A stretch of 64,000 nt of DNA, taken from Sthenelais limicola (taxonomy: Eukaryota; Annelida; Polychaeta; Phyllodocida; Sigalionidae). Each line of letters starts with the position of its first letter. Position 1 is the first letter of the stretch. The translations under genes and the position numbers were made by a program. This document shows, piece after piece, positions 4,082-49,276 of the stretch. The notes below the pieces were generated by a model, which made no database searches, was not told where the DNA came from, and worked only from the letters and a program-made list of their open reading frames with translations. Location: positions 52,534,986-52,598,985 of the forward strand of contig OW804097.1 of assembly GCA_942159475.1 (NCBI GenBank), written 5' to 3'.

Positions 4082-7000
4082 ATGCCTAAAGTCAAGAAAC
4101 CTCGCCGAGGACGTGGTCGCATTGTCTCTAATTTCCATTTTTTTGGAACTGGAGAAGGGAGGCAAATTGAGCGAGAATATCCTTCTGCCAATTTGGAGAA
4201 AGTCGACTATTTCGATGTTCATACTGGCCAAAAAGAAACTTCTTACATTGACTTATCACGCAATAATGTCGAATTAACGGCCAAACCCAATGACAAACCA
4301 AAACAGATAAAGCGACTCATTTCTGGTACTGCTACCTTTTTCAATAATGGCTTATCAACGACCCAGCCATACTCCGTTGAAGTGCCCGATGAGGAACATC
4401 TCGCCATACAACATTCTGCTGATCGGCCCCTTGTTCAATTTGACCCACCACTTCCAGCTGACGAGCCTATTGGACTACTACATGAACATCCTTCCCCACC
4501 ATCACGAGCCTGTGAGTAACATTTATTTAACCTGCAAAAATCTGCCATATATATACCCTCTCATACAGCCAATATTCATATATCCAATTTTGACTTCAGT
4601 TAATATCACTTCCCTTTGTCCAAACAACGACATTATATTTAACACCCACCTTATTTTCTCTCCATTTTGTGGCGACTTTACTTATGATATTTATATCCTA
4701 TGCATTTTGTGTGAATACCCTACTCTTTACCTTTCATATTGTACTTTCGCATTGTCAAACGACTAATATGAACCTGATATATTCAGCTGACTATTAATCC
4801 TCTCAAATTGTCATAAATATTTGTAATTTCTATATTATTCCAATCTTGTCATAATATGTTAAATAACGTGTTCAAACTTATCAAATCATTTTCACCATAT
4901 CGCAATATATCAAAATTGCAAAATTAGTCAGCCAATCTATGGACAACATGCATGAGCCATTCGTAAGCACTTGTCCTTGGAGACATATACCCTCACTACT
5001 GTGACCACATCTCCCGACGTTCAACAAAAGCACAACAAAACAACCAACCAATATCTACCTACATTTACATTAACATTGTCCATTTTCTCTACTTCTATTT
5101 CAGCTCGGACATATGCCACTCGCCGTAACAAATTGAGCAATGCATGGGACTTATTCGAACTCCCTCTCATGGCCGAACACATCATGTCAAAAGCGCCCGT
5201 CCATTTAGTCTGCTCAATTTGCACCAAACACGATCCCAACATAATTCTATGTACCGACTGTGGGCCACAAACATACTACTGCTGCGAATGCGCACTTAAT
5301 GTGCACAAGCGATGTGTACTACATGTGCCACAGCGCTGGACCGTATGTATTTTCATTTTAATATTGTTATTTATTTTACTCCCAAAATTAAACTATCCAT
5401 TTTACTTATAATATTTATTTAAACAATCACTTTTCTTATTCAGTACAATCAGACACTATAATCGCTTCAATAACGTTTATTTTTATCGTCTAATTATTAA
5501 GGGTGAAGTTTTCGTCCCATTCCACTGGGAGAAAGAGCTGCCTTCCACCCCACATCAATGCGACGACAACTCCAAAATCATACGCTACCCACTTGTCCTT
5601 ATTGACAGCAAAGGTATGATCTATCATATCCCTCCATTCATAATATATAAATTATTGTATATAATGTACATAACTTTTTGATATTCACTTTTTTAATCTG
5701 CAACAGCCTGCATGACACATTTGTAATCAATAAAGATTATCCATCATTTTTCATCTGCATCGGCAACACACTCGACAGCCATCATTATGCCTTTTCCTTC
5801 AGCACTGTCACAAATTGTATATTAAATTGTATATTAAACATATTTTTGCAGGCCGTCAACATCAAGTAGTAATTAACGTTTGCACCTGTCGTAACTTGAG
5901 TGAAGCACTCATTTTGCATGGGTTTTGGCCTGGCACACCCGAGAAACCTACAACAGCTATACATCTTGACCTTATGTCCCAAGCCAGGGCATTCATGCTT
6001 GAGGGGACAATGTCATTACAATCTTTTTGTGCAAGCATCGAAACCAGCCTTGCCTACATACCTTCGTATGCACCACAAGTAATACACCTTTAATATATAT
6101 ACTCCTCTCATTCTCTCAATTATCATTCCTTAAATAATGAAATAGTTTATACAAAATTGCCCTTAACATAATGTCTTTACATACTTTACTAATTGCATAT
6201 CATTATTAATATATTTTGAAATAATTTTCTTTATTTCCCCGAAAGAAAAAAATTGGTCATGTACAGAAAACGTTACTTTTACTATTTCAGGTCGATTTGT
6301 ATAGAATTCTAGTAAATGAGTGTGCTGGACGACATCGTAAATTCTACCACGATCTCGCCCATATGAAAAAATTAGTTCCCCAATATCCGGATGGATCTCT
6401 TTGTCCAATATGTATTAAGGTATTGTCTATATTACCTATTGATATTGAATTAACATACATTCACAATTTTATTATTTCATATACATTGCCCCAAAAAATA
6501 TTTATTTATCTTCACTATCTTCACTCTCTATTATCAAATAATTTTTGATCATAATTGGATTAATTACATATTTCGTCACTTCATATTTTCAATAGCTAGT
6601 TCCCAGTCAGACCTTCCTATAATTTAATGTTGTTACTTACGGATAATTGCCCAAAATTATTTTCAATATCCTTTTGCAGACGGAGGACTCCTTACCTCGC
6701 CACTACAGCTTGGATGGAAACTTTCGGTTGGTCCGCAAGAAATCCTCTGGCCGAAGTCATCATCCCCCCCTTCACTCCGACACTTTTTTCATTGAAAAAT
6801 CGGACATGGACGATTACTTCACCCCCCCTCCTGTGACTAATCCCGATTTGAACAATGTGAGAAAAAAATTTTCTTCCCTTCCCCATTGTTTATATAGCCA
6901 CATCTGTTTTTTTTTGTCCGCATGTCAACATTCAATCGAATGATTTTGCTGACATAGCTGTTAAACAAGCGTTCAATGAACAAATCACCTTATTTTGTTT

Positions 7001-8392
7001 CCCTCCATCTGACTTGATGCCACTCATTAAAACAAATACCCATTCCATTTGGCTGGATGGGACCAATCCATTGACAACAAACTTAATCAAATACAACCAA
7101 TATTTACACAATCTTCACCTTCTTCCTTTAACACAATGCCTCAACAACTTTTTTCCTCTCCTTCTCTTATCGGACACACCAGAATGACCCATGTCCACCT
7201 GGTGCAGCGCGAACCAGACCATTAATTAATTCGCACTCACTGTCAAACAAATCGTACTGCAATGTGCATATTTTCAACATGCCCCTGATCAAATAATTCA
7301 ACCCTCCTAACCTCAACTCCTTCCTCTAGGAATGCCACGACTTCCGTGCCGGTGACCAGAAAAGGGCGTCATTCCGGACTGCGAAGTTGGATGTGACAGG
7401 AATTTTCGGCTCAGTTTGCATCCATGACTATCCATACTTATTCATTGACATGGACTCTGGCGAGAAGTATGTTTCAACATTCATCAAATAAATGAACTTC
7501 TATTAAAATGACCATTAAAATGAACCCACACCCTTCGCTCCATAGGCTTTGCACTCTCACAAAAAATGCCCAATTACGAAAAATCTGGCTCGAATCCCAT
7601 GGAGAACTTTTTCGATATCATAATATAGCATATTATCAACAGGAATCTGCTACAAAATCCATAACGAAAATAACTTTTTTGGCCTATTACCATCCCGAGC
7701 CATTACTTCGTCCCTTGCACGTAATTAAATCAACTAAATTATCTATCATTTCTATATCCCTTTTCAATATGTAATCATTTACAAATAATCGTTATAAATG
7801 TTCATCAGATATTTTATACAATATTTTCTCATTTTAGATTTGGCTATGCAGCATCGGTTATTGCTAAATCTCTTGAACTGGGTGCTCCCCTCAATATCAG
7901 TTATGATATTGCCTGCAAGTTGGAGACTTATTTGAAGGTATTTATGAAACAACTTTTATTTAATATTATACTAAATTCACACTCTAAATCGCTCAGCCAT
8001 ATGTTGAATAGTTGAGACACTTATGTTTGACCTAACGATTTAAACATAATGCTAACCCTATCTTCTCCCCTTTTTCCTAGTCCAACTAACTCTTTATCAA
8101 ATGAAATTGACACATACATACATACATACATACTCATTCTGAAAATTCAATTTGACTCACTAATTTCCTCTACTCATTGTCAATGTTAAAGTCATTTTTC
8201 ATTCGTCATAAATTAAACCATAACTTTTTTTTTCCCCCAGCGAATAGGTCTTTATAGTGACAAACTGACCCTGGCAGTTCCGGTTATGCATGGCTATGCA
8301 CATGAGGCGAAGTGTCAGGTAATATTAATTCTAATACAATCAAATTATTGACTATTTGTAATAAATTTGAATGTTAAATGGCATTTTTGTTT

Positions 8393-8432
<40 letters not shown>

Positions 8433-11400
8433 TATTTCTATATGTCTATTTCGTCCCTAATTCCATATCAACATAACCGAAACCCAAACCATTGCACATT
8501 CCACCTAAAATTTTTCCATCATTACATTGTGTAGGTGCAGTATAACCCCCGACTCCTACAAACATACCGAAATGCGGACGGGGAGAATATTGAAAGATTG
8601 TGGAGCTACTTGGGGAAACTGTGCTACATAACAAAAGAGATGACTGCATCTAATCGACGAGATTTGTTAGTACAAGCACTCTTGCACTACGGCGGGAAAA
8701 AAATTGCGAACTTTGGTATGTATTATCTAAATTTTATCTAATTGCATAATCAATCTTTCCCATTTTCATTATTTTGTTTTGTACTTAGTTCACATTGATT
8801 CATACGCGGATGCCATTTGTGTGATGGCGATCCTTCCTTATGTGAGAGCGATATATAAATATACCAAACTATATTAACGACATAATATAGAGATACAACA
8901 TTATTACTAATTTCGAACTTTTTATAATGTAGCAATCTTCTTCCCTCCAATTTGAGCCATCTAGTACTAAAACATCCCATTTTAGCATCGGAGCGTTTGC
9001 ACGTCTCAATATTTGACTCAATTGTTTATTTCTTCTAATCTATTTACAAGCAAAACGGATGACGTCTAAAATGGAAAGTGCAGTCGCTGTCCAGACTAAA
9101 TTTTTGGCTGAGCGGAGCATAGCTAAATTAGCACTAGAACGTATGTATAATTTTGTCACATCATTTACTCTATCTACTACATTACTTCATATTATCGTAG
9201 GGCCATTTCTATGACTATAACGATACGCTATGATAAATTGTGCACGCTTCCACATTACTTGTGCAACTTCTCTTACCAGACACGGGCCACAAACGCTAAA
9301 CTCAGAGCCCTCGCTCGTCTCTAGTCTTCTACATCCCATTTAAAAACGTCTGAGCGCCTTCACATATGTATATATTACTTTCTATTATAATCAACTCTCT
9401 TTCTTTTACTGTAAGCCTACCTGACTATAAATTGTGCGCGCTTCCAACTTACTTGTGCTACTACTCTTCCAAGACACGCGCCACAAACCCTCAATTCCCA
9501 TCCGTTGCGCCTCTCTTCTCGCACTGTCCTAACTTTGTGGCAGGGCGCCATCTTTATATAAATTGAGTCTTCGACCTACTCAAATAACTCACGCTCTGAG
9601 GAGAGGCGCCGCCTAGGCCCACCTTTATTAGTTGACTTACACTTGTGGCAAATGAATCGGGACATATTCAATCGTGTGTCATCAACGAGCAACCCATCTA
9701 TCACTAAATGTCATTACTTCCTCTGGGTCTGTTCTGTCTCCTACGCAACTTCTCTCTGATGTGTCTCCTTCCGAGGCCTTTTCTATTCTACTGCTATACA
9801 TCTTCGGAACAAGTGGGCCTCTTTCGCCCATATCAACAACGAAATCGGGCTTCATAGCCTTCGCCAACTGTCGGCCACCTTTATGCACCTACATTATCTG
9901 GGCGCAAGCTCACTTCTCTACTCTACCAACACCTGTACACAATTATTCTCACTAATCATAGACAGTGCATCGACTAGACATTTCCACTATGTCTAAATAT
10001 TTTATATTACATTACCTTTTACATTTACTTTATTCTCTTACATTTAAATCTACCATATTATATGTCTTTCCCACGATAAAATTCTTATTTCATCCAAATT
10101 ATATTGCTATCTTATCATTCACAAATAACAAAGTACAATGCACTTATGTGTTTGGCGTCATTTTTAACATATATTATTATATGTTGCCTCTCTAATTGAT
10201 TTATATCAATATTGCAGATGCAGGTTTTGTCATTACTGACGAAACAATTAAGACATGGACAGCAGACCTCCTGACTAACCTGAACACCTCCCGAAACAAG
10301 TCTACATGTTAGTTTTAACACGTATTTAATAACTACTTAGTTAATTTACTCTCTGCACATTAATTATTTATTTAAATTGTGCCATTAAAAAATGGACACC
10401 ACATCTACCAAACTGATATACTCACTGCCAATCACAGAAAAGAAAATGAATTCTAAAAATTTTGCTTTCATCCCTCAATTATCATTGAATTATTCAATTT
10501 TACTTTATTTAAATAGTAATATCATTTTCTCCAGCCAACTTGCCATATTTTTATTCATTTCACTATAGGGAAGACTTGGCAAGAGAAGTACGCACTTTTG
10601 CTCACCAGATACTACTTCTTGCGGTAAGATTATAAAGCACAATATGCCCTATTTCGAATATAACATAATTGCTAAATTGAATAGTCACCATTTATCAGTA
10701 ACTTCTTTAGCCAAATGTCCATATTTATTTTTTCCTATTAATCTTTCTATGGATTTTTGAATAATTATTTAATCCTCTTTATCTAATTTTTCTTTGTCAT
10801 CCCTTTTCATCTGACGTAATATATATTACATACGTCTATTGCTTTTTGAATAACTATTTAATCATTTTTAACTAATTTTTGTTTGTCATCCCTTTTCATC
10901 TGACGTAATATATATTACATACGTCTATGCTACTAAATAAAAAAAAACATCCTATTTTCCAGTCAGCAACTCGTTAGTCCAGCGTTGACAGCAGACGATA
11001 TTGAAAGACAAGTTGATTATGACAGGTTCGTTCTGCACCCATTCATTCCTAATTACGATTACTTCCTGCAATCCTATAACAACCATATTTATGATATATT
11101 TGCTCTTTGTCTTTTCTCTAGTATCGCCAATCAACTGGCTGCAATTGAGCGGAAACGCAAAATCACCCGATGGTTGGCGACAGATGACGATTTCCTCGAA
11201 CACTCTCGCAGTGCCACTAACAAGACGAATAGTGACTGTCTTAGAAAACTACATCGTGAGGCAGTAGAGCGACGGCACCACATACTGATCAAAAAAGGCG
11301 CTGTACAGAAAGGCCCCAGTACGTATGAAATTATAATACTCACTCCATACCTATTATTACTCACTAAATGTAAGCAATCCCATTAATATATTAGCTGGAT

Positions 11401-12494
11401 GAATCGACTAGTCTCTATACTTTTTAACTAAAACACTTCCTTGTCTCTACATTCATGTTGACAATTTATATTTTGTTGCAATAACGTCATCATTAAAAAT
11501 TACATTATATTGCTATCTAACTCGTTATACTCCTTGCCTTTACTTATCAACTCCATTATTTAATCACATCCTAATTTTTTCCACACAGAAACACATCCGA
11601 ATCATGACAATTAATTACATTTCGTGCATTATTATTTATATTTAACTCATTTTTTTGCTCTATTACATGCACTCGTGCCATTTCTTTTCTTTACAATAAC
11701 GTTGCTTCCAACCTACCCTTTCATTATTCATTTTGGTCTTTCCATTTAGTAATTAATTTGCTACTATATCGTTACATTTTATCACCATTTCCCTCGTGAT
11801 CGTACATCCCCCTCTAAATATATCGTATATTGGTCTTCGTTTATGTCTGCCTATTCCTATTGAATCATATTATTTCATACTATTTAAATCTATTCCAGGC
11901 GGGAGCGATGCTGCGAAACGTGTATCCAAGTCGTTAAAATCGGTAAATGACCGGCTCCACCGCCTGGTAAAACAGTATAACAGCGTGAATTCGCACTCTG
12001 TAATCACTTTTGATCAAGTTAAGGAAACCGACGCACGTATATACCGGGGCCTCAACCAACCTGATGGTATGGGAATACCGTACAATCTGATGAAAGAATT
12101 TGTTGTTGCCTCCAATCGTATCGACCGCTGCAATGAAGAGATGGCTGCTCTGGACATTGAATTTCAGGCTATACTTGAATTCTACAGGGAAAGCCATCGT
12201 CTACTCTCGAGCCAGATAGACCGTGATGATTGTACTGCTGCAGCAAGAGCGTTCATGATAGAAAAAATTATTGACAACGAAAAAGCTCAACAAAAAATTG
12301 TTTCCTGCATGAGACGCTTTGTCCGAATGAACGCTTTTGACACGGACCATGACACCGAATATTTGGCTAGGGTGGCAACAGAAGAAATAGATTTTGTTGA
12401 ACAGTTTAACAATCTTCGTTTGTACTTATCAGAATCTAGTATTTCTGATGTGGATACTGATGATGCGAATACGGATGATGAAGAAAATGTATGA
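4082..12494 (+). CDS. KDZ-family (Kyakuja/Dileera/Zisupton) DNA transposase, 16 exons, intact frame
   Basis: Exons: 4082-4511, 5104-5342, 5502-5613, 5852-6078, 6291-6419, 6680-6856, 7330-7466, 7838-7937, 8241-8318, 8535-8715, 9051-9140, 10218-10307, 10569-10623, 10963-11025, 11122-11318, 11899-12494. All introns are GT-AG, every phase agrees, and the CDS is 2901 nt (966 residues) with no stop. What is seen: a basic N-terminus, a cysteine cluster at residues 180-214, a CxC motif at 271-273 followed by WPGTP, a CPIC pair at 374-377, DGNFRLVRKK (about 391-400), DVTG with Asp459, SYDIAC with Asp507, an HGYAH...C motif (534-542) and DGENIERLWS with Glu560/Glu563. The C-terminal part is helical and acidic at its end. 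These motifs are characteristic of KDZ transposases, whose RNase H-like fold uses acidic residues for DNA cleavage and strand transfer. The assignment of Asp459, Asp507 and Glu563 as the catalytic triad is inferred. An intact frame suggests recent activity or selection. Confidence 0.93.
8397..8431. repeat. (TC)n microsatellite in KDZ intron 9
   Basis: This is an uninterrupted TC dinucleotide tract of about 35 bases inside the intron before exon 10. It may double as part of a pyrimidine-rich intron tail, though the acceptor used is about 100 bases further on. Confidence 0.9.
9213..9551 (-). other. duplicated antisense exon-like block inside KDZ intron 11
   Basis: On the minus strand, 9551-9453 reads as an open 33-codon exon starting aagATGGCG, with a C-G-A-C cysteine pair, ending CAA at a consensus gtaagt donor. 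A diverged copy of its last part lies at about 9297-9213 and again reads VCGPC...VAQ before gtaatg. Two copies with conserved reading suggest a real coding exon that was duplicated. A TATATAAAG element lies immediately before the ATG, which is too close for that ATG to be the first codon of a TATA-driven transcript. I could not find the exon it splices to. Confidence 0.4.
9682..9888 (-). CDS. terminal exon of an antisense gene nested in KDZ intron 11, unknown
   Basis: This is a 68-codon frame with higher GC than the surrounding intron, read antisense to the transposase. It begins after an acceptor (ataatgtag at 9889-9897) and ends at TGA 9682-9684. An AATAAA signal follows on the same strand (9624-9629), about 55 bases past the stop. 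The peptide is charged, with a Glu/Asp/Ser/Arg-rich second half (KASEGDTSERS). No domain was recognised. Upstream exons were not found, so the gene is partial. Alternatively, an internal Met codon could be the start. Confidence 0.45.
   Translation of the reverse strand: MHKGGRQLAKAMKPDFVVDMGERGPLVPKMYSSRIEKASEGDTSERSCVGDRTDPEEVMTFSDRWVAR
10757..10928. repeat. two tandem copies of ~85 bp in KDZ intron 13
   Basis: A unit containing cttttcatctgacgtaatat and acatacgtctat occurs twice head to tail. The second copy runs almost to the acceptor of exon 14. Its end, with exon 14, was later copied in reverse into the array at about 32070-32151. Confidence 0.75.
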
Positions 12495-19376: not shown

Positions 19377-22300
19377 TTAAGTCAATAATGAATGGTCACT
19401 AATGGCAGAGCTCGGTTCCCAAGTGTTGTCGGCGTTTGGAAAGCCACGCCATTTAATCCTGAACTCCTCCTCACCGGTCACCGGATTATTGCGGACGGCC
19501 ACGATTTTCTCCCACTCCCACTCCACGTCATCTCCTTCTTCTGGTCCATCTGTTTAACAAAAATTACAAATTAATTCCCTTATTATTAACCAAAATGACA
19601 AATTAAGTGCCTTATTATTATAAAATTTAGCGAGATCAACGTAACTTATCACCAATAATGTGACCTACGAACTGACATAATTCTTAATTACAGTGATGCC
19701 TGTCAATGTCAACAAAATTAATTGAAGACGTTTCGAGATGATATGAATACGATTTGCGGAATGGGGGGTATCGATTGATTGAGAGATTGTTAAACGTTCA
19801 AAACGAACTTACCACTGTGTCCATTAGATGTTTGTTTCTCCTGGTCATCTGCTTGTTTTTTTCCCTTAGCACGTTTATTTTTTCCTACTGTTTAATAAAA
19901 TGAGAAATTAGTGGTGAATTAAATTTATAATATATAATCACAAAAAATATAAATATGCTTCTTGGGACAAGCATGTTCAAGTGCCTTATTATTATAAAAT
20001 GTAGCGACATCAGCGTAACTTATCACCAATAATGTCACCTACCAACTGAGATAATTCTTAATTAGAGGGATGCCTGTCAATGTAAACAAAATTAATTGAA
20101 GACGTTTCGAGATGATATGAATAGGGTTTGGGGAATGGGGGGTATCGATTGATTGAGAGACTTTTAAACGTTCAAAATGAACTTACCACTTTTTCCCTTA
20201 GCTTTTTTTTTCTCCTTGGCATCTGCTTTTTGTGGTCCATTAGCCCGATTATTTTTTCTTGCTGTTTAATAAAATGAGAAATTAGGGGTGCATTAAATTT
20301 ATAATATATAATCAAAAAAAATATATTATCGCACTCGTCTGAATAGCGGACATCATTTAGTCATGACTTAATAAATATACTTTCCATTTCGAATACTAAC
20401 TAATTATTTAATTACATTTAAATTGTACATTTGGGCTAATTTTATTGACTTAATAATTTGTTATATGTGCACATTTGTAATGATTCATTCAGATATTATT
20501 AAAAGTTGGAAATGAACTTACCACTTGGTCGCTTAGCCATTTTCTTTTTTGTTTCTGTTTAATAAGATGATAAATTTGGGCTAGATTAAATTGATAATAT
20601 ATAATCAAAAAAAATTTATCAACTACAATTGTGGGGACAATTATATTTGACTGATTGTGTCTTGTCAAGGCTGGACAATGGAAAATTGTATCTGATGTCT
20701 AGAAGCTATTCACATTTTTATCGTGACTGAGAACAACTTACGTTGATATTTGATTTTTTACTAAACATTTAGACGTTGATTCTGTATAATATGGTTAAAA
20801 TACAGGCAGTATAAAGTATTTATTAATCGCGAAATTGACTCAAATGTACGGTGGATAATCGGTTAAAATGCACCGGGATCACACTCACATGGGCTTCTAA
20901 ATAGCCGAAGTGTTTCATTTTTCATTGTGTTGTGCTACAACGAGTCATTGATGGGCAACCATATTCCAAACCTTTGTTGCCGACTGGACAACCACGTTCA
21001 AATCGAATTAGGCAAGCGCTGGAATTAATTGATTTAATACCTTTTGTCTCGCTGGGCTCAGTTATTTCAAACTCGTCTATTGTTACTTGCCCTCCTTCAA
21101 CTACAAAATAAGGAAGACCAATATTTATATTTCGCACTAATACAAATCATATTTGCTATCCTCTGTCTATTGAGTTTAATTATTTCCATATTAATTGCTA
21201 TTTAATTATGTCACATTTTACATGTTACATTTTATAATTATATTTCATTATGTATGATCTGGGTCACGATTAAATATAGTGGCAATTGTCATAAAACGTC
21301 ACATCATGCATGCATGATGTCAAAAATAACTAATTTTCTAATTCAATAATAAATAACTTTTAATTTACAATACCTTGCTCGTCTGCCTCAACCGTCAGTA
21401 CATCGCCCCTTGCCACGCCAATAATTGCTCCACCTTCGCCTATAAAATAAATAAGTGAAATTTTTGTATTTATGTTACAATTAGTACGAAAATTGGACAA
21501 ATATATATATATCGCTATGACAATATAAACGGACGTACCTGCCGTAATATCAAGTCCGATTGCAATTGATTGTGGCTCTTCGTCAATTGGAACACTTTCT
21601 GGCACTTCTGGCTCGTCTTCAACTATATTATTGTTTAATAATAAGAGACAAATTAGGTAAAGTGATATTTCAGGAAACGACCCCACCACATCCATAAATG
21701 ACGAAATAAGAAATTAATATTGGTCTATGTCTTTTTTTGATATTATCTTCGTTTTTTTTTTATGAGATGAGCTAGTTACAGGCGCTATTTAATAATATAA
21801 TATACTGATATATTTACGCACGGTGCACAAATACGATCTCTGCATCAGCCATTGCGATTGCAGCATCCTTATTTAGCGCCCATGGGTTTGGAAGCTTATC
21901 ACAACCATCTGGGAGGCCCGTCACCCGAACTCTGAGTTTGCCCGCGTTCATTTTCGTGTATGGGAACACTTTGACACGTCTCCCCAGAAATTTGCCTTTA
22001 ATGAGAGTACAACAGTTAAATGAAATTGATATATTAATTGAGAAGTATTTAATTCATAACTAATCAATTTTGTATGCAAAATGTATATACATTTAGATAT
22101 TATGATATACATGTCTTTATCATAATATTTCTAATATTATATTTTGTGGCATTATAGTACATTTTCTCTATTAATATAAGTTGACTAAATCGTAATGATG
22201 TGAAATAATTTAATTTTAAAATATGACGTGTTGCCATACCATAAGCCTCTTTGATGCGCTCCTGCACGCGCTGGCGCAGCTGGTCCAGCGTTGGTTGTGG

Positions 22301-24596
22301 GGACGGGGCCTCATCACTGCGGCCATGCAACGACGCCATAAGTGCGGTCCGATACTCGTTCCAAGTATTGACCGCGTGTCTTGTGCCGATGGCATGGTTT
22401 GCTCCATTAAGGATCCCCACAAACAACGCCTTCTGGTCCAGCCGATCAAGAAGATCCACCTTTAATATGAACAGTAAAAAGTCGACATAATTCAACAATA
22501 ATATAATTTATAATAAATTTATCAATAATGTCTCTAAATGAAATGCACTAATAAAATAATAATGAACGTTTTGATTGACAGGTTGCTAATTTTCCGGCGC
22601 TAGACGCGGTGAGAATAGTGTTGGTAGGGGGATATGAGTGGGGGAGAGAGAGAGAGGGGGTGGTGGCGGTGTGGAGAGGAGAGGGTGGTGAGAGAGGGTG
22701 GGGTTGAGAAAGAGGGTGCGGTGGAGAGAGAGAGAGAGGGTGTGTTGAGGAGTGAGTTGCGACGAATAGCGGTGTGTATAGCGCTTATCGGTTATGGGAT
22801 GGTTCCCCATTTCCCTATAATACTCACGGGCTTTTGAGTCATGATTATATAAGGGGATCGGATAGATCATTTGAAAAAAGCATGAAGAATAATTTAGAAT
22901 GGATCACTTCCACGCCCTGCGGTATTGGAACGAAATTACGTATGCAAAGGAGACTTACCAAAAAATCCATTTTTTGGCCGATTTGCCTAACTTTTTTTTC
23001 TTTTTGGGCGGGAGAGAGTTTGCTTGGGCACTCTTCACGCTCTTCTTTCGCCTTTTGCCCGTACATTTCGCGTTCCTCGTCTGTCAGCGAGCGCCACTGC
23101 GTGCCGAAACTAGACAGGCGAGTGTTGCCTTGGGAGGAACCTGTATGAATAGAAATAAATGTCACTCGAAAGAAAAAGTTGGACATTTTTCGTCTAAGCA
23201 TTGCATATGTATCGATATGGCGATATGCTTCGATTCGTTTACCTATATCATATTGACAACCCAATCACCATTGAAAAATAAAGCAAGTTCGCACAAGTGT
23301 TAAGCCCAACTCGACGATTTGCACATAAAAAAAGGCTCTTATTTACCTATATCATATTTACTAAGGACAAAAAAGACCCCAATCACAATAAAAAAAACCC
23401 AGCAACTCCGCACAAGTGTTAAGCCCAAGTGGACCATTTGCACATAAAAAAGGGTCTTATCAGAATCACAGCGACTATTAAGAAATATGAGTGATATAAA
23501 GGCGTTAATTAGATCGCAAGATAGTATTGAAATGAACGCTATTAGTTGATGTTATAGCTTATATGGTATGTCTTTTTTAATGAAAAGTGCACCCACTGCT
23601 AGTAGCTTGTTCCCTCGTGAATAAGTTGTAGCCGTTGAAGCGTGACGTCTCCTTCTCTCTAAACTGGGATTTCTTGCTCTTTGTGGACTTCTCTTGCGCG
23701 CCAATTAAGTCCGGCAGCATGTTCTTGACTTTTTTCTGTAACGACAACATAATTTGAGTGCAAATTGAGTGTATTATGAATAATATAATAGTGGAGTCTG
23801 ATTAGGTATATGTCCTTTTTTTTTCTTTATAAAAGTCATATGTACAGATATTTGTTAAGGTATTGGCTAAGACGAAATTAGCGTGCAATTGTGCTACTGC
23901 AATAAAGGGGTCGGTTGAAGTTGAATCTGTTATCATGCATACCACGACAAATGTCCACTCCAGCCCCGTTTTGTCTACGAGAGCTTCGAGTTGGGGCCAG
24001 AACTGTTTCCCGGTCCCCCTCAAGCCGTTTGCAATAGCATCGACAAAGTGCTGCCGCTGCTCCGGCGTGCAAGGATTGCGGCGCACTTTCATCTTCTTTT
24101 TGGTTTGGCTGGAATATGTAATTTTGTAATTGGATTGCAATTGCATACGTACATAATAATAATATGTCGCTCAAAATGTTCTCTCTTAAAGTTCGACTAT
24201 TTGAGGTGTTATTAGGGCAATTTAAATATTTCGCTATGTTTGCTATGCTTGTCCAATTTAGGCGTAGACATATCATTAGGATATAAAAGCCACTAAGTAG
24301 ACTAACATTTCCTCCATAGCGTCGCACAATTCAGATGAGGAGTGGCATAATTTACTTAATTCATAAACATTTGCTTTATTTTGATAATGTGCTGATAAAT
24401 TGACGTGTACAAAACAAAATAAGACATAATTTTAGGCTTTGAGAAAGTGCAGAGCCATTCTAGAGGAAGCGTGGTGTAATTTTTTCCGCATGTTAATAGG
24501 ACGATATGAGAGAGTCATTATTAAAGACATAGCAAAATATTTGTCTTAAAGACAAATAAAAAGATCGTGTGAAAAGTAGAGTACTTACGTGGCCAT
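19377..24596 (-). CDS. HMG-box plus chromodomain protein, 13 exons
   Basis: Exons: 24596-24589, 24108-23943, 23735-23597, 23140-22959, 22459-22240, 21995-21822, 21622-21539, 21439-21374, 21100-21041, 20554-20522, 20261-20187, 19887-19813, 19549-19377. All boundaries are GT-AG, all phases agree and the CDS is 1455 nt (484 residues). Exons 5-12 all end in phase 1. Residues 1-87 are a basic, helical N-terminus. Residues about 88-138 are an HMG box split over two exons (RFNGYNLFT, then QWRSLTDEEREMYGQKAKEE with Trp120 and Tyr131). Residues 150-296 form an unrecognised folded region. Then come an acidic segment and three short Lys-rich exons with the look of duplications. Residues 438-477 form a chromodomain (EKIVAVR, FRIKWRGF, NTWEP); Trp438, Trp461 and Phe464 fit the methyl-lysine cage. 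The protein should bind DNA and methylated histone tails in the nucleus. HMG proteins accompany fungal KDZ transposons, which suggests a helper or targeting role (inference). Confidence 0.85.
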
Positions 24597-32151: not shown

Positions 32152-32523
32152 GTGTATGGAGTCGCATTAGGGTGGTGTGGGGGGATGGCCCCGAAGAAAA
32201 AGTATGAAAAATGAAGTGTGGACAAGCCACTGATGGAAGCGCGAAGGTCGCGCTCCCGAATTAGGACTTTGTTCAGTCTGTTCATGACAGAAGGGAAGGT
32301 AGGAGATTTATAACTGACAAGAGAATGCCCTAAGTGTAAGTAGTTAAATGTGAAATGGCGAAGCATTTTCCTTTTCCGTGGCGCAATCTTAAAATTTACT
32401 GATATAAGCGCCAACGTCGCATCAGGGTGGTGTGGGGGGATGGCCCCGAAGAAAAATGAAATGTGGACAAGCCACTGATCGCAGCGCGAACGTCGCGCTG
32501 CTGAATTAGGAATGAGGTTGATG

Positions 32524-32722
32524 ATAAAAAGTGCGAAATTAGTAATAATGTTGTATCTCTATATTATGTCGTTAATATATTTTGGTATAAGTGTCTATTT
32601 CGCTCTCCCATAAGGAAGGATCGCCATCACACAAATGGCATCCGCGTATGAATCAATGTGAATTAAGTACAAAACAAAATAATGAAAATGGGAAAGATGG
32701 ATTATGCAATTAGATAAAATTT
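32524..32722 (-). pseudogene. captured KDZ transposase fragment (intron 10)
   Basis: The segment is the reverse complement of about 8728-8925, with few differences, for example ggaaggatcgccatcacaca and gcatccgcgtatgaatcaat. A second, shorter copy of its left end lies at about 37196-37282. All lies within the intron between KDZ exons 10 and 11. Confidence 0.9.
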
Positions 32723-33057
32723 ACGAAATTGTAGCACCCACGCGCGAACGTCGCATTAGGGTGGTGTGGGGGGATGGCCCCGAAGAAAAAGTCTGTTCAT
32801 GACAGAAGGGAAGGTTGGACATTTAATTATAAGTGAAAAGAGAAATTATGAGAAATGAAAAATGTAAGTTATTAGGAAGTTGTTCAGTGTGTTCATGACA
32901 GAAGGGAAGGTTGGATATTTATAAGAGAGAAATGAAAAATGTAAGTTATTAGGAAGTTGTTCAGTGTGTTCATGACAGAAGGGAAGGTTGGATATTTATA
33001 AGAGAGAAGAAAAATTATGTGAAATTAAAAATGTAAGCTATGCCCTAATTGTAAGGA

Positions 33058-33160
33058 GTTGAATGTGGTGGAGCCGGTTCATTTGTTCCTCTTTCCTATG
33101 TATTTTGGTCTGGCACTCTTTCAGTACTCGCTCAACTTTTGACTGGCTTACATTAAGGCA
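33058..33160 (-). pseudogene. captured fragment of coiled-coil gene exon 1
   Basis: This + strand sequence is a diverged copy of about 2740-2830 in the same orientation, so it is antisense as the gene is (key string tctggcactctttcagtact). Further copies lie at about 34018-34120 and 36475-36577. All are flanked by the same array units. Confidence 0.85.
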
Positions 33161-33856
33161 AAGCGCGAAGGTCGCGCTGCCGAATTAGGACTTTGTTCAG
33201 TCTGTTCATGACAGAAGGGAAAGTAGGATATTTATAAGTGACAAGAAGCAATGTAAGTGTAGAATGTATTCATGTAAATGTTCATTAGGACAAAGCGTCT
33301 CATGCAGGAAACAAAGTGTAAATGTGGCGAAGTGTTTAAAAATGTAAAGTATGCCCTAAGTGTATGGAGTTAATTGTGAAGTGGCGAAGCATTTTCTTTT
33401 TATTTGGTGCAATGTTGAAATTTACTGATAGAAGCGCCAACGTGGCATTAGGGTTGTGTGGGGGGATGGCCCCCGAAGAAAAAGTATGAAAAATGAAATG
33501 TGGACAAGCCACTGATCGAAGCGCTGACCGAAGAAAAGGTCGCGCTCCCGAATTAGGAGTTTGTTCAGTCTGTTCATGACAGAAGGGAAGGTTGGAGATT
33601 TATAAGTGAAAAGAGAATGCCCTAAGTGTATGGAGTTAATTGTGAAGTGGCGAAGCATTTTCTTTTTATTTGGTGCAATGTTAAAATTTACTGATAGAAG
33701 CGTCAACGTGGCATTAGGGTGGTGTGGGGGGATGGCCCCCGAAGAAAAAGTATGAAAAATGAAATGTGGACAAGCCACTGATCGGAGGCGGTTGTGTTGC
33801 CCGAGGATGTTCATATGCTAACCGCAATTGGGGTTCAGTCGGCTGACCAAAGAAAA

Positions 33857-33927
33857 GGTCTTATTTAGCGCCCATGGGTTTGGAAGCTTATCACAACCAT
33901 CTGGGAGGCCCGTCACCCGAACTCTGT
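33857..33927 (-). pseudogene. captured fragment of HMG/chromodomain gene exon 6
   Basis: The segment is identical over about 68 bases to 21869-21936 (tttggaagcttatcacaacc). That is the coding part around residues 265-285 of the HMG/chromodomain protein. It is inserted between array units. Confidence 0.9.
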
Positions 33928-34902
33928 GTTCATGACAGAAGGGAAGGTTGGATATTTATAAGAGAGAAGAAAAATTATGTGAAATTAAAAATGTAAGCTA
34001 TGCCCTAATTGTAAGGAGTTGAATGTGGTGGAGCCGGTTCATTTGTTCCTCTTTCCTATGTATTTTGGTCTGGCACTCTTTCAGTACTCGCTCAACTTTT
34101 GACTGGCTTACATTAAGGCAAAGAGCGAAGGTCGCGCTGCCGAATTAGGACTTTGTTCAGTCTGTTCATGACAGAAGGGAAAGTAGGATATTTATAAGTG
34201 ACAAGAAGCAATGTAAGTGTAGAATGTATTCATGTAAATGTTCATTAGGACAAAGCGTCTCATGCAGGAAACAAAGTGTAAATGTGGCGAAGTGTTTAAA
34301 AATGTAAAGTATGCCCTAAGTGTATGGAGTTAATTGTGAAGTGGCGAAGCATTTTCTTTTTATTTGGTGGCATGTTGAAATTTACTGATAGAAGCGCCAA
34401 CGTGGCATTAGGGTTGTGTGGGGGGATGGCCCCCGAAGAAAAAGTATGAAAAATGAAATGTGGACAAGCCACTGATCGAAGCGCTGACCGAAGAAAAGGT
34501 CGCGCTCCCGAATTAGGAGTTTGTTCAGTCTGTTCATGACAGAAGGGAAGGTTGGAGATTTATAAGTGAAAAGAGAATGCCCTAAGTGTATGGAGTTAAT
34601 TGTGAAGTGGCGAAGCATTTTCTTTTTATTTGGTGCAATGTTAAAATTTACTGATAAAAGCGCCAACGTGGCATTAGGGTGGTGTGGGGGGATGGCCCCC
34701 GAAGAAAAAGTATGAAAAATGAAATGTGGACAAGCCACTGATCGAAGCGCTGACCGAAGAAAAGGTCGCGCTCCCGAATTAGGAGTTTGTTCAGTCTGTT
34801 CATGACAGAAGGGAAGGTTGGAGATTTATAAGTGACAAGAGAATGCCCGAAGTGTAAGTAGTTAAATGTGAAATGGCGAAGCATTTTCCTTTTGTTTGAT
34901 TT

Positions 34903-35094
34903 GATATTTAATTCATAACTAATCAATTTTGTATGCAAAATGTATATACATTTAGATATTATGATATATATGTCTTTATCATAATATTTCTAATGTTATA
35001 TTTTGTGGCATTATAGTAAATTTTCTCTATTAATATAAGTTGACTAAATCGTAAGGATGTGAAATAATTTCATTTGAAAATATGACGTGGTGCA
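34903..35094 (-). pseudogene. captured fragment of HMG/chromodomain gene intron 5
   Basis: The segment matches about 22045-22232 with a few substitutions (for example atttagatattatgatatat). It is intronic sequence only, joined to array units on both sides. Confidence 0.85.
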
Positions 35095-35751
35095 ATGTTA
35101 AAATTTACTGATAGAAGCGCCAACGTGGCATTAGGGTGGTGTGGGGGGATGGCCCCGAAGAAAAAGTATGAAAAATGAAATGTGGACAAGCCACTGATCG
35201 AAGCGCTGACCGAAGAAAAGGTCGCGCTCCCGAATTAGGAGTTTGTTCAGTCTGTTCATGACAGAAGGGAAGGTTGGAGATTTATAAGTGAAAAGAGAAT
35301 GCCCTAAGTGTATGGAGTTAATTGTGAAGTGGCGAAGCATTTTCTTTTTATTTGGTGCAATGTTAAAATTTACTGATAGAAGCGCCAACGTGGCATTAGG
35401 GTTGTGTGGGGGGATGGCCCCCGAAGAAAAAGTATGAAAAATGAAATGTGGACAAGCCACTGATCGAAGCGCTGACCGAAGAAAAGGTCGCGCTCCCGAA
35501 TTAGGAGTTTGTTCAGTCTGTTCATGACAGAAGGGAAGGTTGGAGATTTATAAGTGAAAAGAGAATGCCCTAAGTGTATGGAGTTAATTGTGAAGTGGCG
35601 AAGCATTTTCTTTTTATTTGGTGCAATGTTAAAATTTACTGATAGAAGCGCCAACGTGGCATTAGGGTGGTGTGGGGGGATGGCCCCCGAAGAAAAAGTA
35701 TGAAAAATGAAATGTGGACAAGCCACTGATCGAAGCGCTGACCGAAGAAAA

Positions 35752-36115
35752 GGTCTTATTTAGCGCCCATGGGTTTGGAAGCTTATCACAACCATCTGGG
35801 AGGCCCGTCACCCGAACTCTGAGTTTGCCCGCGTTCATATTCGTGTATGGGAAGACTTTGACACGTCTCCCCAGAAATTTGCCTTTAATGAGAGTACAAC
35901 AGTTAAATGAAATTGATATATTAATTGAGAAGTATTTAATTCATAACTAATCAATTTTGTATGCAAAATGTATATACATTTAGATATTATGATATACATG
36001 TCTTTATCATAATATTTCTAATATTATATTTTGTGGCATTATAGTACATTTTCTCTATTAATATAAGTTGACTAAATCGTAAGGATGTGAAATAATTTCA
36101 TTTTAAAATATGACG
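35752..36115 (-). pseudogene. captured 364-bp fragment of HMG/chromodomain gene (exon 6 and intron 5)
   Basis: This is a nearly identical copy of about 21869-22232, spanning most of exon 6, its acceptor and most of intron 5. The two smaller fragments at 33857 and 34903 are subsets of this segment. The array was therefore probably seeded once from the gene and then shuffled. Confidence 0.92.
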
Positions 36116-37235
36116 TGGTGCAATGTTAAAATTTACTGATAGAAGCGCCAACGTCGCATTAGGGTGGTGTCGGGGGATGGCCCCCGAAGAAAAAGTATGA
36201 AAAATGAAATGTGGACAAGCCACTGATCGAAGCGCTGACCGAAGAAAAGGTCGCGCTGCCGAATTAGGACTTTGTTCAGTCTGTTCATGACAGAAGGGAA
36301 GGTTGGACATTTATAAGTGAAAAGAGAAATTATGAGAAATGAAAAATGTAAGTTATTAGGAAGTTGTTCAGTGTGTTCATGACAGAAGGGAAGGTTGGAT
36401 ATTTATAAGAGAGAAGAAAAATGATGTGAAATTAAAAATGTAAGCTATGCCCTAATTGTAAGGAGTTGAATGTGGTGGAGCCGGTTCATTTGTTCCTCTT
36501 TCCTATGTATTTTGGTCTGGCACTCTTTCAGTACTCGCTCAACTTTTGACTGGCTTACATTAAGGCAAAGCGCGAAGGTCGCGCTGCCGAATTAGGACTT
36601 TGTTCAGTCTGTTCATGACAGGAAAGTAGGATATTTATAAGTGACAAGAAGCAATGTAAGTGTAGAATGTATTCATGTAAATGTTCATTAGGACAAAGCG
36701 TCTCATGCAGGAAACAAAGTGTAAATGTGGCGAAGTGTTTAAAAATGTAAAGTATGCCCTAAGTGTATGGAGTTAAATGTGAAATGGTGAAGCATTTTCC
36801 TTTTATTTGGTGCAAAGTTAAAATTTACTGATAGAAGCGCCAACGTCGCATTAGGGTGGTGTGGGGGGATGGACCCGAAGAAAAAGTATGAAAAATGAAA
36901 TGTGGACAAGCCACTGATCGAAGCGCGAAGGTCGCGCTGCCGAATTAGGACCTTGTTCAGTCTGTTCATGACAGAAGGGAAGGTAGGAGATTTATAAGTG
37001 ACAAGAGAATGCCCTAAGTGTAAGTAGTTAAATGTGAAATGGCGAAGCATTTTCCTTTTCCGTGGCGCAATCTTAAAATTTACTGATAGAAGCGCCAACG
37101 TCGCATTAGGGTGGTGTGGGGGGATGGCCCCGAAGAAAAATGAAATGTGGACAAGCCACTGATCGCAGCGCGAACGTCGCGCTGCTGAATTAGGAATGAG
37201 GTTGATGATAAAAAGTGCGAAATTATTAATAATGG

Positions 37236-38170
37236 TGTATCTCTATATTATGTCGTTAATATAGTTTGGTATAAGTGTCTATGGATATATTGTGTGTAAA
37301 TGTGGCGAAGTGTAAATGTGCCAGAATTCATTTTCTGCATTTAAACAGAACGATTTGATAGAGTTAATTTATGTGTTGTTCTAAAGTAAAAAACATTGTA
37401 CAGTTTAACATTTATAAAATCTAAGTGGCCTACTATGGGTGTGGGGGCGATACAGCTACCCTGTCACTGACAGTAAAACGATCTTAGCACTTCGAGCTAA
37501 AACAATTTCTTTCATTTTTAGATGACGATGAATGCTGTATCGTCGATGTCTCTCGGGCATGACAGAAGGGAAGGTTGGAGATTTATAAGGAAAAGAGTGT
37601 TGTAGCGTTTTAAAGATGGTTTTGATCGCCTAATATAGTTTGGTATAAGTGTCTATGGATATATTGTGTGTAAATGTGGCGAAGTGTAAATGTGCCAGAA
37701 ATCATTTTCTGCATTTAAACAGAACGATTTGATAGAGTTAATTTATGTGTTGTTCTAAAGTAAAAAACATTGTACAGTTTAACATTTATAAGATCTAAGT
37801 GGCCTACTATGGGTGTGGGGGCGATACAGCTACCCTGTCACTGACAGTACAACGATCTTAGCACTTCGAGCTAAAACAAGCGCGAACCTCACGCTGCCAC
37901 ATTAGGGGTGTGGGGGCATGGCATGAGCCCCAAGAAAAATTATGAGAAATCGGCAAACAGTCAAGATTGAAGCTTGAAGCTTGAAGCTATTAACAAAAGC
38001 AAGATTGAGTGGTCGCCACAGGGAGATTTGTAGGGATTTGTAGTGAATTGTATTAATAAAAGATAAATTAAATAAGTGAGGTTGTTCAGTCTGTTCATGA
38101 CAGAAGGGAAGGTTGGAGATTTATAAGGAAAAGAGTGTTGTAGCGTTTTAAAGATGGTTTTGATCGCCTA
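37236..38170. repeat. tandem duplication with ~371-bp period
   Basis: The segment tatagtttggtataagtgtc...cacttcgagctaaaacaa at 37261-37505 recurs at about 37632-37880. The piece agaagggaaggttggagatttataaggaaaagagtg recurs at about 37565 and 38103. An exon-like scrap after a tttttag acceptor (about 37522) codes for DDECCIVDVSRA and a stop. Beyond 38170 to the right arm the DNA is AT-rich without a clear gene. Confidence 0.75.
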
Positions 38171-45077: not shown

Positions 45078-45229
45078 ACCAAAATGTGTCAAGAGGATTG
45101 TTTATTCATTAGAGAAGCCCCGTGTTGTTTTATTTGAAAAAAAGATGTATATGCACCGGGATGTATGGGCCAAGGTATGGATTGATAGGGACAAAGGCCG
45201 GCTCGCGTTGGATTTATAGGGTAAGGGAT

Positions 45230-47154: not shown

Positions 47155-47908
47155 GTGAGTGAAAAATAATTATTAATTTTGGGGAAGAAATATTTGAATA
47201 TTGATGAATTATGTATTAAATAATGTAGTAATATGATATAGTTTACAAAGTAAGCCTATTAAGGAATATATGTAATAGAGTAATATATTTCGATTGTAGG
47301 CATGATATGCGATTTTAAGTGCAAATATGGGTTGGGCGGAATAAAGATAATAATAAATTCAAAGGTGACAAAATTATAATTTATATTTGCAGAATAAGGC
47401 ATTAAATTAAAGGCAATATTTATGGTAAGGCGTAAGGTTAGGTTCAAATGGATGTAGGGGTAGTATAGGGGTAAATATAATTAAATTCGGTTTGAGGATG
47501 ATTGGCTAAATTTATTAAGATGGTAAGTAATTATAAAGAGAAATAAGTTATTGGTTTGGGCGAATAGTAGGTTCAAATGAGATATAATGAATATATAGGG
47601 TAATATAGTAGGCGTAAATCGAAATGGGTTTGTGGCGGGAAGTGGCGCCATTGTAGCGTGGCAGTAAGGAGAAATGATTTTAATGAAAGGTGCAGTTTGA
47701 TGCGCGGATCGTCCGCGAGTGGTGTGCTGGTGTTGTTGTTGTCGCCCATATAGACCAGGAGAAGAATGAAAGAAGGTCTAACGAAGTGGGTAAAGTACTG
47801 CTCCAAGACCCCTTTTAAGTAAAACCCCAGCCTTACATTGGTCTAATGTTTTAAAGAAAGACAGGTCTGAGAGTAGTAAGTCCCAAAAACATCCAAAAAC
47901 ATCCAAAA

Positions 47909-48905: not shown

Positions 48906-49276
48906 AGGGAATCTATAAAGAAAAAAAACCTCCCAGAATCTCATCAGATCGATTCTAAATACAGCTAAAGTTAGAGTGCCGATCAATAATTCAATAATGC
49001 AATAATTTGAATGATGGAGGGCCTCATTAGTAGGTCCATTCCTTTAACTATAGCAGACCCTATAGGCAATGGCCACAAACAATAATAAATTGTTCACAGA
49101 AACTAGAACAGGGATAAATAAAGATTTACTATAGAACCAGGAACGAAGATATTGTACAAGATACAGTATAGTATCTTACAAATCCGAATCAAATATGGCA
49201 TTGAGTGATGTGAGAGTAGTGTCATTGGAGGGATTTATTCTGTTAGGGGTTGGTCAAACTGTCAATCCTAATTTGG

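Follow-up and report, generated by a model that had tools for sequence, protein, structure and literature searches.

A predicted HMG box, GTF2I-like and chromodomain gene carried within a giant KDZ transposon of Sthenelais limicola

Thirteen short exons on the minus strand of a 64,000-nucleotide stretch of Sthenelais limicola DNA (contig OW804097.1; hereafter the window) share their neighborhood with a KDZ transposase gene, raising the question of whether they form a genuine gene and what such a gene might do for a transposon. A preliminary description of the locus had proposed a hidden gene fusing an HMG box to a chromodomain. Our best overall explanation, to which we assign a probability of roughly 0.62, is that the predicted product is an adaptor encoded by a giant KDZ element, linking KDZ transposition to DNA and chromatin as a companion of the transposase.

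A 51.6-kb element and its two genes

The companion gene sits within a 51,642-bp transposon at window coordinates -3759 to 47882, with positions 1-47882 falling inside the window. The left end (GAGCCGGCC...) lies outside the window at L030:6241 (window -3759) and the right end (...AGTAGTAAGTC) at 47882; homology among copies ends sharply on both sides, and the right copy of the 7-bp target duplication CCAAAAA occupies 47883-47889, its left counterpart being at L030:6234-6240. Among 18 loci with both ends, 17 displayed an exact 7-bp target duplication, compared with 0 of 306 crossed pairs, consistent with the 7-8 bp expected of the KDZ superfamily. The companion is the second gene of a giant element, carried between both of its ends. 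The termini read GAGCC...AAGTC (GA..TC) and form no terminal inverted repeats, the first 10 bases of the two ends matching at 2 positions; a weak 29-bp inverted match (83%) is located about 100 bp inward of both ends. The motif GGCCGGCTC at 45196-45204, which mirrors the left terminus and resembled a terminal inverted repeat, was ruled out as the right end because the homology of three copies continues to approximately 47882, where the target duplications are found. Elsewhere in the element, visual inspection of all six frames (frames of at least 55 or at least 62 residues) yielded only fragments and no third clear gene. The element surrounding both genes had been overlooked in the preliminary description. 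The host genome contains Wnt genes and is that of an animal, not of a basidiomycete.

The predicted transposase gene (4082-12494, plus strand) comprises 16 exons and encodes an open product of 966 residues. Its exons lie at 4082-4511, 5104-5342, 5502-5613, 5852-6078, 6291-6419, 6680-6856, 7330-7466, 7838-7937, 8241-8318, 8535-8715, 9051-9140, 10218-10307, 10569-10623, 10963-11025, 11122-11318, and 11899-12494. Pfam searches identified the KDZ domain (PF18758; 142 bits, cut-off 26.6, profile positions 4-211 of 217) together with the cysteine clusters CxC2 (34.6 bits, cut-off 27) and CxC1 (30.5 bits, cut-off 26.9), and the predicted frame was open in six of the seven copies read. Protein database searches returned no match at E 0.001 for the transposase (5,699 candidates) and none at E ≤0.01 for the companion (7,986 candidates), negatives of little weight, since animal genes may be sparse in that database.

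The companion model, running on the minus strand from 24596 to 19377, reproduced the 13 exons and 484 residues proposed earlier, with GT-AG boundaries at all introns and consistent phases. Exon 1 (ATGGCCAC; 24589-24596) and exon 2 (23943-24108) precede the HMG box, which is split between exon 3 (23597-23735) and exon 4 (22959-23140). A GTF2I-like repeat begins at the end of exon 5 (22240-22459) and is encoded mostly by exon 6 (21822-21995), whose donor must be GTGCGT, as a GT slightly downstream (GTAAAT) breaks the frame; part of this exon and its upstream intron (21868-22234) recur as a 98.6% duplicate on the minus strand at 35755-36121, within a tandem array. An acidic linker in exon 7 (21539-21622) is followed by exons 8 (21374-21439) and 9 (21041-21100), by basic linkers in exons 10 (20522-20554), 11 (20187-20261), and 12 (19813-19887; a tandem duplicate of the exon 11 segment), and by exon 13 (19377-19549), containing the chromodomain and the stop codon. 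Seven of the 18 copies (the window and six others) were read for the companion, and in all seven the frame and splice dinucleotides were intact and the exons free of indels, while the introns were less uniform, five copies having deletions of 13-37 bases and three a net insertion of about 190. This pattern indicates that the model is more than chance, and we regard the predicted gene as real, with exons 1-2 and linker exons 7-12 less well supported than exons 3-6 and 13.

Domains of the predicted companion protein

Profile searches recovered both domains of the postulated fusion. The chromodomain (PF00385; residues 441-480, cut-off 25.1) scored 36.4 bits in the whole protein and 40.9 bits when cut out, and the HMG box (HMG_box_2; residues ~93-141, cut-off 22.4), which spans the exon 3/4 junction, scored 26.1 bits cut out versus 19.4 in the whole protein; exon 4 by itself reached 22.5 bits in a genome scan (E-value 0.19). 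A further domain that had escaped the preliminary description, the GTF2I-like repeat (PF02946; residues 226-294, cut-off 27), crosses the exon 5/6 junction and scored 27.9 bits cut out versus 23.4 in the whole protein. The HMG box and this repeat thus pass their curated cut-offs solely as cut-out segments. Pfam revealed no catalytic domain in the companion.

The suggestion that the chromodomain carries a plausible methyl-lysine cage was borne out by aromatic residues at the aligned positions W438, W461, and F464, and all three positions were aromatic in each of five aligned chromodomain exons, three of which (window, L003, and L008) adjoin a KDZ match. When the predicted chromodomain model was compared with the PDB, the 50 matches listed of 345 were all chromodomain proteins (best E 2.3e-3), including HP1 Y24W with a trimethyllysine peptide, whose tryptophan aligns to W438. 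In HP1 numbering, the companion has W in place of Y24 and F in place of Y48. HP1, CBX, and CDY chromodomains were the nearest solved structures by sequence and fold, and the companion matches them in having an aromatic residue at each of the three cage positions in the alignment. For the cut-out GTF2I-like repeat, the four best PDB matches were GTF2I-family domains (best E 4.3e-4); a structure model of the GTF2I-like exon (pLDDT 46.9) was left out of the evidence. The HMG box and the GTF2I-like repeat are probable DNA-binding domains, and the chromodomain probably reads chromatin marks as a putative methyl-lysine reader.

Relatives, selection, and insertion positions

An HMG, GTF2I, or chromodomain match was present within 25 kb at 24 of 49 KDZ loci, where about 0.45 would be expected by chance, although 16 of the 24 belong to family 1, whose copies are not independent; the remaining 25 loci had no companion. 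Rather than being consistently absent from other KDZ copies, or failing profile searches, the gene was traceable by its HMG exon at 16 of 17 family-1 loci. The expectation that the same gene would stand beside other KDZ transposases held only in part outside this family, with a companion-type match at 8 of 32 loci and none at 24. The relative in family 3, beside another KDZ family, shares the domain order and exon/intron phases of the companion, with 64 of 216 identical residues (30%; blastp E 4e-17) and a score of 64.3 bits versus at most 19.6 in 60 shuffles; Pfam did not find GTF2I in it. The complete domain set was found in two families only, and three further families show parts: the family-2 relative has a GTF2I match (PF02946; 32.1 bits) and no HMG box found by Pfam, family 4 a sub-threshold HMG match only, and a fifth family a chromodomain only. 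The KDZ exon peptides of these five families are 44-85% identical and fall in two deep groups.

Among the recent copies, companion exons varied at 15 of 1455 sites and introns at 36 of 3765, with 12 nonsynonymous and 3 synonymous changes, whereas transposase exons varied at 15 of 2901 sites and introns at 80 of 5512. With exon variation as high as that of introns and a 12:3 ratio of changes, recent constraint on the companion is not visible, unlike that on the transposase. Measured against two older relatives, exon 4 gave a dN/dS of 0.25. Compared with random points, family-1 copies lay closer to chromodomain matches of the gypsy type (p 0.004), in an analysis based on hand-made lists, some estimated contig sizes, and an HMG control list of 26 that included an older relative (C5:94477790). 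Other KDZ loci exhibited the same closeness (p 0.013), so insertion positions do not discriminate targeting, and any preference is inseparable from general transposon clustering.

Possible roles and comparison with known systems

That the model is an artefact of picking exons by eye is hardly credible: the exons are short (8-220 bp) and predicted from splice signals, but two domains cross splice junctions, exon phases recur in a relative only 30% identical, and no exon indel occurred in any copy read. A captured host chromatin gene, riding as a passenger with no role in transposition, would fit the lack of excess exon conservation among recent copies, and in a brown alga giant transposons, KDZ elements included, often bear extra genes and nested insertions (PMC12477816). 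Against it stand the relatives, whole or in parts, that accompany five KDZ families from two deep groups, the domain order and phases conserved in the one relative fully read, and the exon 4 dN/dS, which together make a passenger quite improbable; we consider it very probable that the companion is a genuine gene kept for the use of the element.

The companion may help KDZ transposons choose or escape chromatin. As an adaptor, it would use its HMG box and GTF2I-like repeat to bind or bend DNA, either at the ends of the transposon or at the target, while its chromodomain would bind methylated histone H3; it could thereby anchor the KDZ transposition complex on marked chromatin and so bias the insertion site or let the complex act on silenced copies. 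Tethering at the target site as its main job is a tentative proposal, close to evenly balanced. The companion could instead act at the element itself, binding silenced copies via histone marks and opening them or activating their transcription, much as has been proposed for the TET/JBP dioxygenases that fungal transposons carry. HMG and GTF2I domains do occur in chromatin proteins and transcription factors, and the sequence does not separate donor from target binding; moreover, TET/JBP genes occur on transposons of fungi, KDZ elements among them, probably as a means of evading silencing (PMC12730594). The companion differs in having no catalytic domain detected by Pfam, and we hold such anti-silencing to be possible but not favored.

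Compared with described elements, the adaptor-bearing transposon resembles fungal Kyakuja in its 7-bp target duplications and lack of terminal inverted repeats, yet Kyakuja termini are CA..TG (PMC12730594), and the element was not filed as Kyakuja because its own are GAGCC...AAGTC. Zisupton is characterized by terminal inverted repeats and 8-bp duplications (PMC12730594), in contrast to the absent repeats and 7 bp observed here. At 51.6 kb, it exceeds the sizes given for KDZ elements in another study (30.3 kb, the Ectocarpus maximum, and 31.7 kb in Chlamydomonas; PMC12477816), and it is a very large addition to the DNA transposons, its ends and target duplications being clear. Fungal KDZ elements frequently carry accessory genes (PMC12477816), and the window element also has a second gene, although this encodes an HMG/GTF2I/chromodomain protein and the fungal accessory is TET/JBP. 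Among the literature matches listed, with subscription papers mostly outside, we found no KDZ element joined with a chromodomain or GTF2I gene; in the one study where KDZ and chromodomains were both frequent, the chromodomains belonged to Gypsy elements (PMC12477816). Our findings suggest a two-gene plan for animal KDZ elements.

HMG companions of KDZ elements in basidiomycetes were reportedly described by Iyer in 2014. In those cases an HMG-box gene reportedly adjoins the KDZ transposase, as it does here; the companion described here differs in its animal host and in combining the HMG box with a GTF2I-like repeat plus a chromodomain in one protein.

The companion contains one repeat akin to those of the TFII-I (GTF2I) family; TFII-I has several, and the single repeat sets the companion apart from that family. 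To our knowledge, the origin of the TFII-I repeat is unsettled, and a KDZ companion is a possible source. The genome has three GTF2I matches at E ≤0.001, each 10-17 kb from a KDZ match, the pattern predicted if the repeat originated in transposons. This exon-by-exon scan, in which 7 candidates were scored, could miss a host GTF2I gene, since the split repeat of the window was itself unlisted. We consider it unlikely, taken as a whole, that animal KDZ transposons have for a long time encoded their own chromatin adaptor (HMG, GTF2I-like, and chromodomain), a targeting module in its own right, and also gave rise, by domestication, to the GTF2I repeats of vertebrate TFII-I.

The chromodomain integrases of gypsy retrotransposons (chromoviruses and others) offer a close parallel for a chromodomain encoded by a mobile element, and Gao in 2008 is said to have reported that such chromodomains direct retrotransposon integration to heterochromatin. 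Retrotransposon targeting relies on a reader joined to the integrase, a recombinase, whereas here the chromodomain belongs to a DNA transposon and sits on a protein of its own; if the adaptor reading is true, a reader encoded as a second protein, and represented by relatives near other KDZ families, would constitute a separable targeting factor.

Domain architecture of the companion gene

The companion is a real gene. The 13 exons assembled in the preliminary description were reproduced on the minus strand (window 24596-19377), with every intron bounded by GT-AG, consistent phases, and a product of 484 aa; the exon 6 donor, GTGCGT, is in frame, and the next GT downstream loses the frame. The proposed chromodomain was recovered by Pfam at residues 441-480 (36.4 bits; cut-off 25.1). 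The proposed HMG box passed the cut-off only in isolation, scoring 26.1 bits with residues 86-145 cut out and 19.4 bits in the whole protein (cut-off 22.4). A GTF2I-like repeat that had been overlooked was found at residues 226-294 (Pfam; 23.4 bits whole, 27.9 bits cut out, cut-off 27). Searching the sequences of solved structures with the companion returned HP1-type chromodomains (E ~4e-5), a GTF2IRD1 repeat (E 0.0057), and, at E 0.01, mitochondrial transcription factor A, in agreement with the Pfam calls, and the top four matches of the cut-out GTF2I-like repeat were GTF2I-family domains (best E 4.3e-4). A 374-bp tandem duplication (window 19605-20325; copies 89% alike) contains exons 11 and 12, indicating that the basic linker was enlarged by duplication. 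A 98.6% copy of partial exon 6 and the intron upstream of it occupies window 35755-36121, inside a tandem array of the element that spans roughly window positions 32161-37282.

A 51.6-kb transposon carrying two genes

The companion is convergent, across 6.9 kb, with a Kyakuja-Dileera-Zisupton (KDZ) transposase gene on the plus strand (4082-12494; 16 exons spliced, 966 aa; KDZ domain 142 bits, with CxC2 and CxC1 clusters). Six more copies showed 98.8-99.8% identity to the window in aligned blocks >2 kb across the 30 kb fetched per copy. Homology stopped abruptly 3,759 bp to the left of the window (comparison of two copies) and at 47882 on the right (three copies), delimiting 51,642 bp. The left end occurred at 21 genomic sites and the right end at 24; both were present at 18 loci, spaced 43-103 kb, and 17 of these 18 carried exact 7-bp target duplications, compared with 0/306 when left and right flanks were crossed between copies. 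The sole exception, C8:8.88 Mb, has masked bases near its right end. The element is thus a transposon, and both genes lie within it. It has no terminal inverted repeat (TIR), the first 10 bases matching at 2 only; a 29-bp inverted match (83%, E 2.8e-4) situated ~100 bp inside each end, at 6341-6369 of the left-end sequence L030 and at window 47762-47790, is possibly a transposase binding site.

Other mobile sequences were observed in and around these copies. A two-ended copy of the window element's family (family 1), 102.5 kb long (C5:123160141-123262666), contains a further KDZ match (C5:123193212-123196271), apparently nested. Non-LTR retrotransposon frames lie directly beyond the right end of the window's copy (49247-52230), with endonuclease and reverse transcriptase profile matches at 49247-51163, and a fragment at 893-1943, within the element, resembles a non-LTR retrotransposon by eye. 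The genome of the window (1.13 Gb, in which the window occupies C4:52534986-52598985) yielded 45 Wnt exon matches; the Wnt family is not known outside animals.

In all seven copies read (the window and six fetched, of 18), the companion was open, with intact splice dinucleotides and no exon indels, and the transposase was open in 6/7; the copy at C1:70.3 Mb has a premature transposase stop at codon 158 and an open companion. An HMG exon was present at 16/17 family-1 KDZ loci (15 above the curated cut-off, one slightly under; E-values 0.13-0.49 in a scan run to E 10). The seventeenth family-1 KDZ match, C5:47.73 Mb, carries an extra stop. At C1:61.74-61.81 Mb, the eighteenth locus with both ends, KDZ matched weakly and HMG not at all. 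Among the 150 candidates scored of 556, the chromodomain exon was found at 14 or more loci. Differences among recent copies numbered 15/1455 exon sites versus 36/3765 intron sites in the companion (12 nonsynonymous, 3 synonymous) and 15/2901 versus 80/5512 in the transposase, a pattern showing constraint on the transposase, with none visible on the companion. Two older relatives of the element, at C2:17.64-17.72 Mb and C5:94.45-94.48 Mb, have right ends 85% and 82% identical, and each has an HMG exon; of the two, only the C2 locus showed a KDZ match. Against these relatives (C2:17.68 and C5:94.48 Mb), companion exon 4 (54 codons) gave dN 0.20-0.21 and dS 0.80-0.84 (ratio 0.25), and the ratio between the two relatives was 0.55. 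Constraint on the companion is therefore seen over longer times only, from this one exon.

Companion relatives beside other KDZ families

The association with KDZ transposons raised in the preliminary description extends beyond this element: relatives of the companion adjoin other KDZ families. Among 57 KDZ matches at 49 loci, 24 loci had a companion-type match (HMG, GTF2I, or chromodomain) no more than 25 kb away, against ~0.45 expected by chance, a figure that uses all 150 chromodomain matches and assumes uniform positions, same-family copies not being independent. The count drew on 18 HMG matches (3 under the curated cut-off) and on 17 chromodomain matches picked after all 150 had been compared with the KDZ matches. 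Sixteen of the 24 loci belong to family 1, and the other eight were grouped by KDZ exon into family 2 (C1:62.9, C1:66.9, and C8:14.07 Mb), family 3 (C1:3.08 and C1:149.7 Mb), family 4 (C7:12.4 Mb and contig C32), and a fifth family (C7:98.25 Mb). KDZ exon peptides, one locus per family, were 44-85% identical across the five. Companion-type and KDZ matches are convergent in family 3 and the fifth family, like the window, and on one strand in families 2 and 4.

The family 3 relative at C1:3.06 Mb (7.6 kb read) follows the window order: pieces of the HMG box come first, followed by an exon 5 region and a GTF2I-like region, then by a basic linker rich in KP, and the chromodomain exon is the last one. 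Its core shares 64/216 residues with the companion (E 4e-17; 64.3 bits versus ≤19.6 in 60 shuffles), and intron phases agree for the exons matching 3, 4, 5, 6, and 13, with one additional intron. Pfam gave its chromodomain 54 bits and its HMG box a sub-threshold 18.8-21.6 bits, and did not find GTF2I. The family 2 relative scored 32.1 bits for GTF2I in Pfam; it had no Pfam HMG match, an HMG-like and an exon-5-like exon being recognized by eye only, and no chromodomain within the 26 kb read. The three genomic GTF2I matches at E ≤0.001 (C1:66891232, C1:62943745, and C8:14049818) all belong to family 2, 10-17 kb from KDZ, and no host TFII-I-like gene was among the GTF2I matches listed in the genome scan. 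The sole companion part seen was an HMG match of 22.0 bits in family 4 and a chromodomain of 48.8 bits in the fifth family. Taken family by family, these findings establish the full domain set for two families.

Proposed function and comparison with known elements

Chromodomain exons from the window and four other loci (L003, L004, L008, and L001) all carried aromatic residues at the three cage positions (5/5). L004 and L001 have no KDZ match within 60 kb; L001 (C9:61849672), a terminal exon of the KDZ-companion type, topped the genome scan at 57.3 bits (150 scored of 556) and is a host gene or else a companion that has been domesticated. The chromodomain model was of modest confidence (pLDDT 68.7), and the best 50 of 345 PDB chains matching it at E ≤10, none at 0.001, were all chromodomain proteins, many bearing H3K9 or H3K27 methyl peptides. 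These included an HP1 Y24W variant, and the window protein has W at the aligned place. Given the cage positions and the chromodomain-type model matches, we infer that the companion would read methyl-lysine through its chromodomain and, with two probable DNA-binding domains attached, may serve the KDZ transposase as an adaptor.

A targeting role for such an adaptor is plausible, and we place the probability that it selects targets at roughly 0.45; that the companion instead acts on silenced copies is a somewhat less likely reading. Family-1 copies lie closer to gypsy-type chromodomain matches than random positions (median 1.44 versus 4.28 Mb, p 0.004), as do 31 other KDZ loci (p 0.013); for 26 other HMG loci no such nearness was seen (p 0.61). 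The nearness of family 1 fits that of any transposon gathering in repeat-rich DNA.

Accessory genes in KDZ elements are already known. Among the papers listed in our literature search, none was seen with the HMG/GTF2I/chromodomain combination, and the term HMG is absent from the available portion of a nematode Zisupton study (PMC9297572). The mammalian hAT fusion GTF2IRD2 (PMC10641963) is a distinct matter. Fungal Kyakuja elements have CA..TG ends, 7-bp duplications, and no TIRs, Zisupton has TIRs and 8-bp duplications (both PMC12730594), and Cryptococcus KDZ elements have duplications of 4-8 bp and TIRs of 139-241 bp (PMC12810828). The window element resembles Kyakuja in duplication length and absence of TIRs but differs in its termini, and is therefore assigned only to KDZ. 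KDZ elements are counted among the largest DNA transposons, and at 51,642 bp the window element exceeds the examples of 30.3 kb and 31.7 kb given in PMC12477816. In sum, a giant KDZ transposon carries a companion gene with this domain set, whose relatives stand beside other KDZ families.
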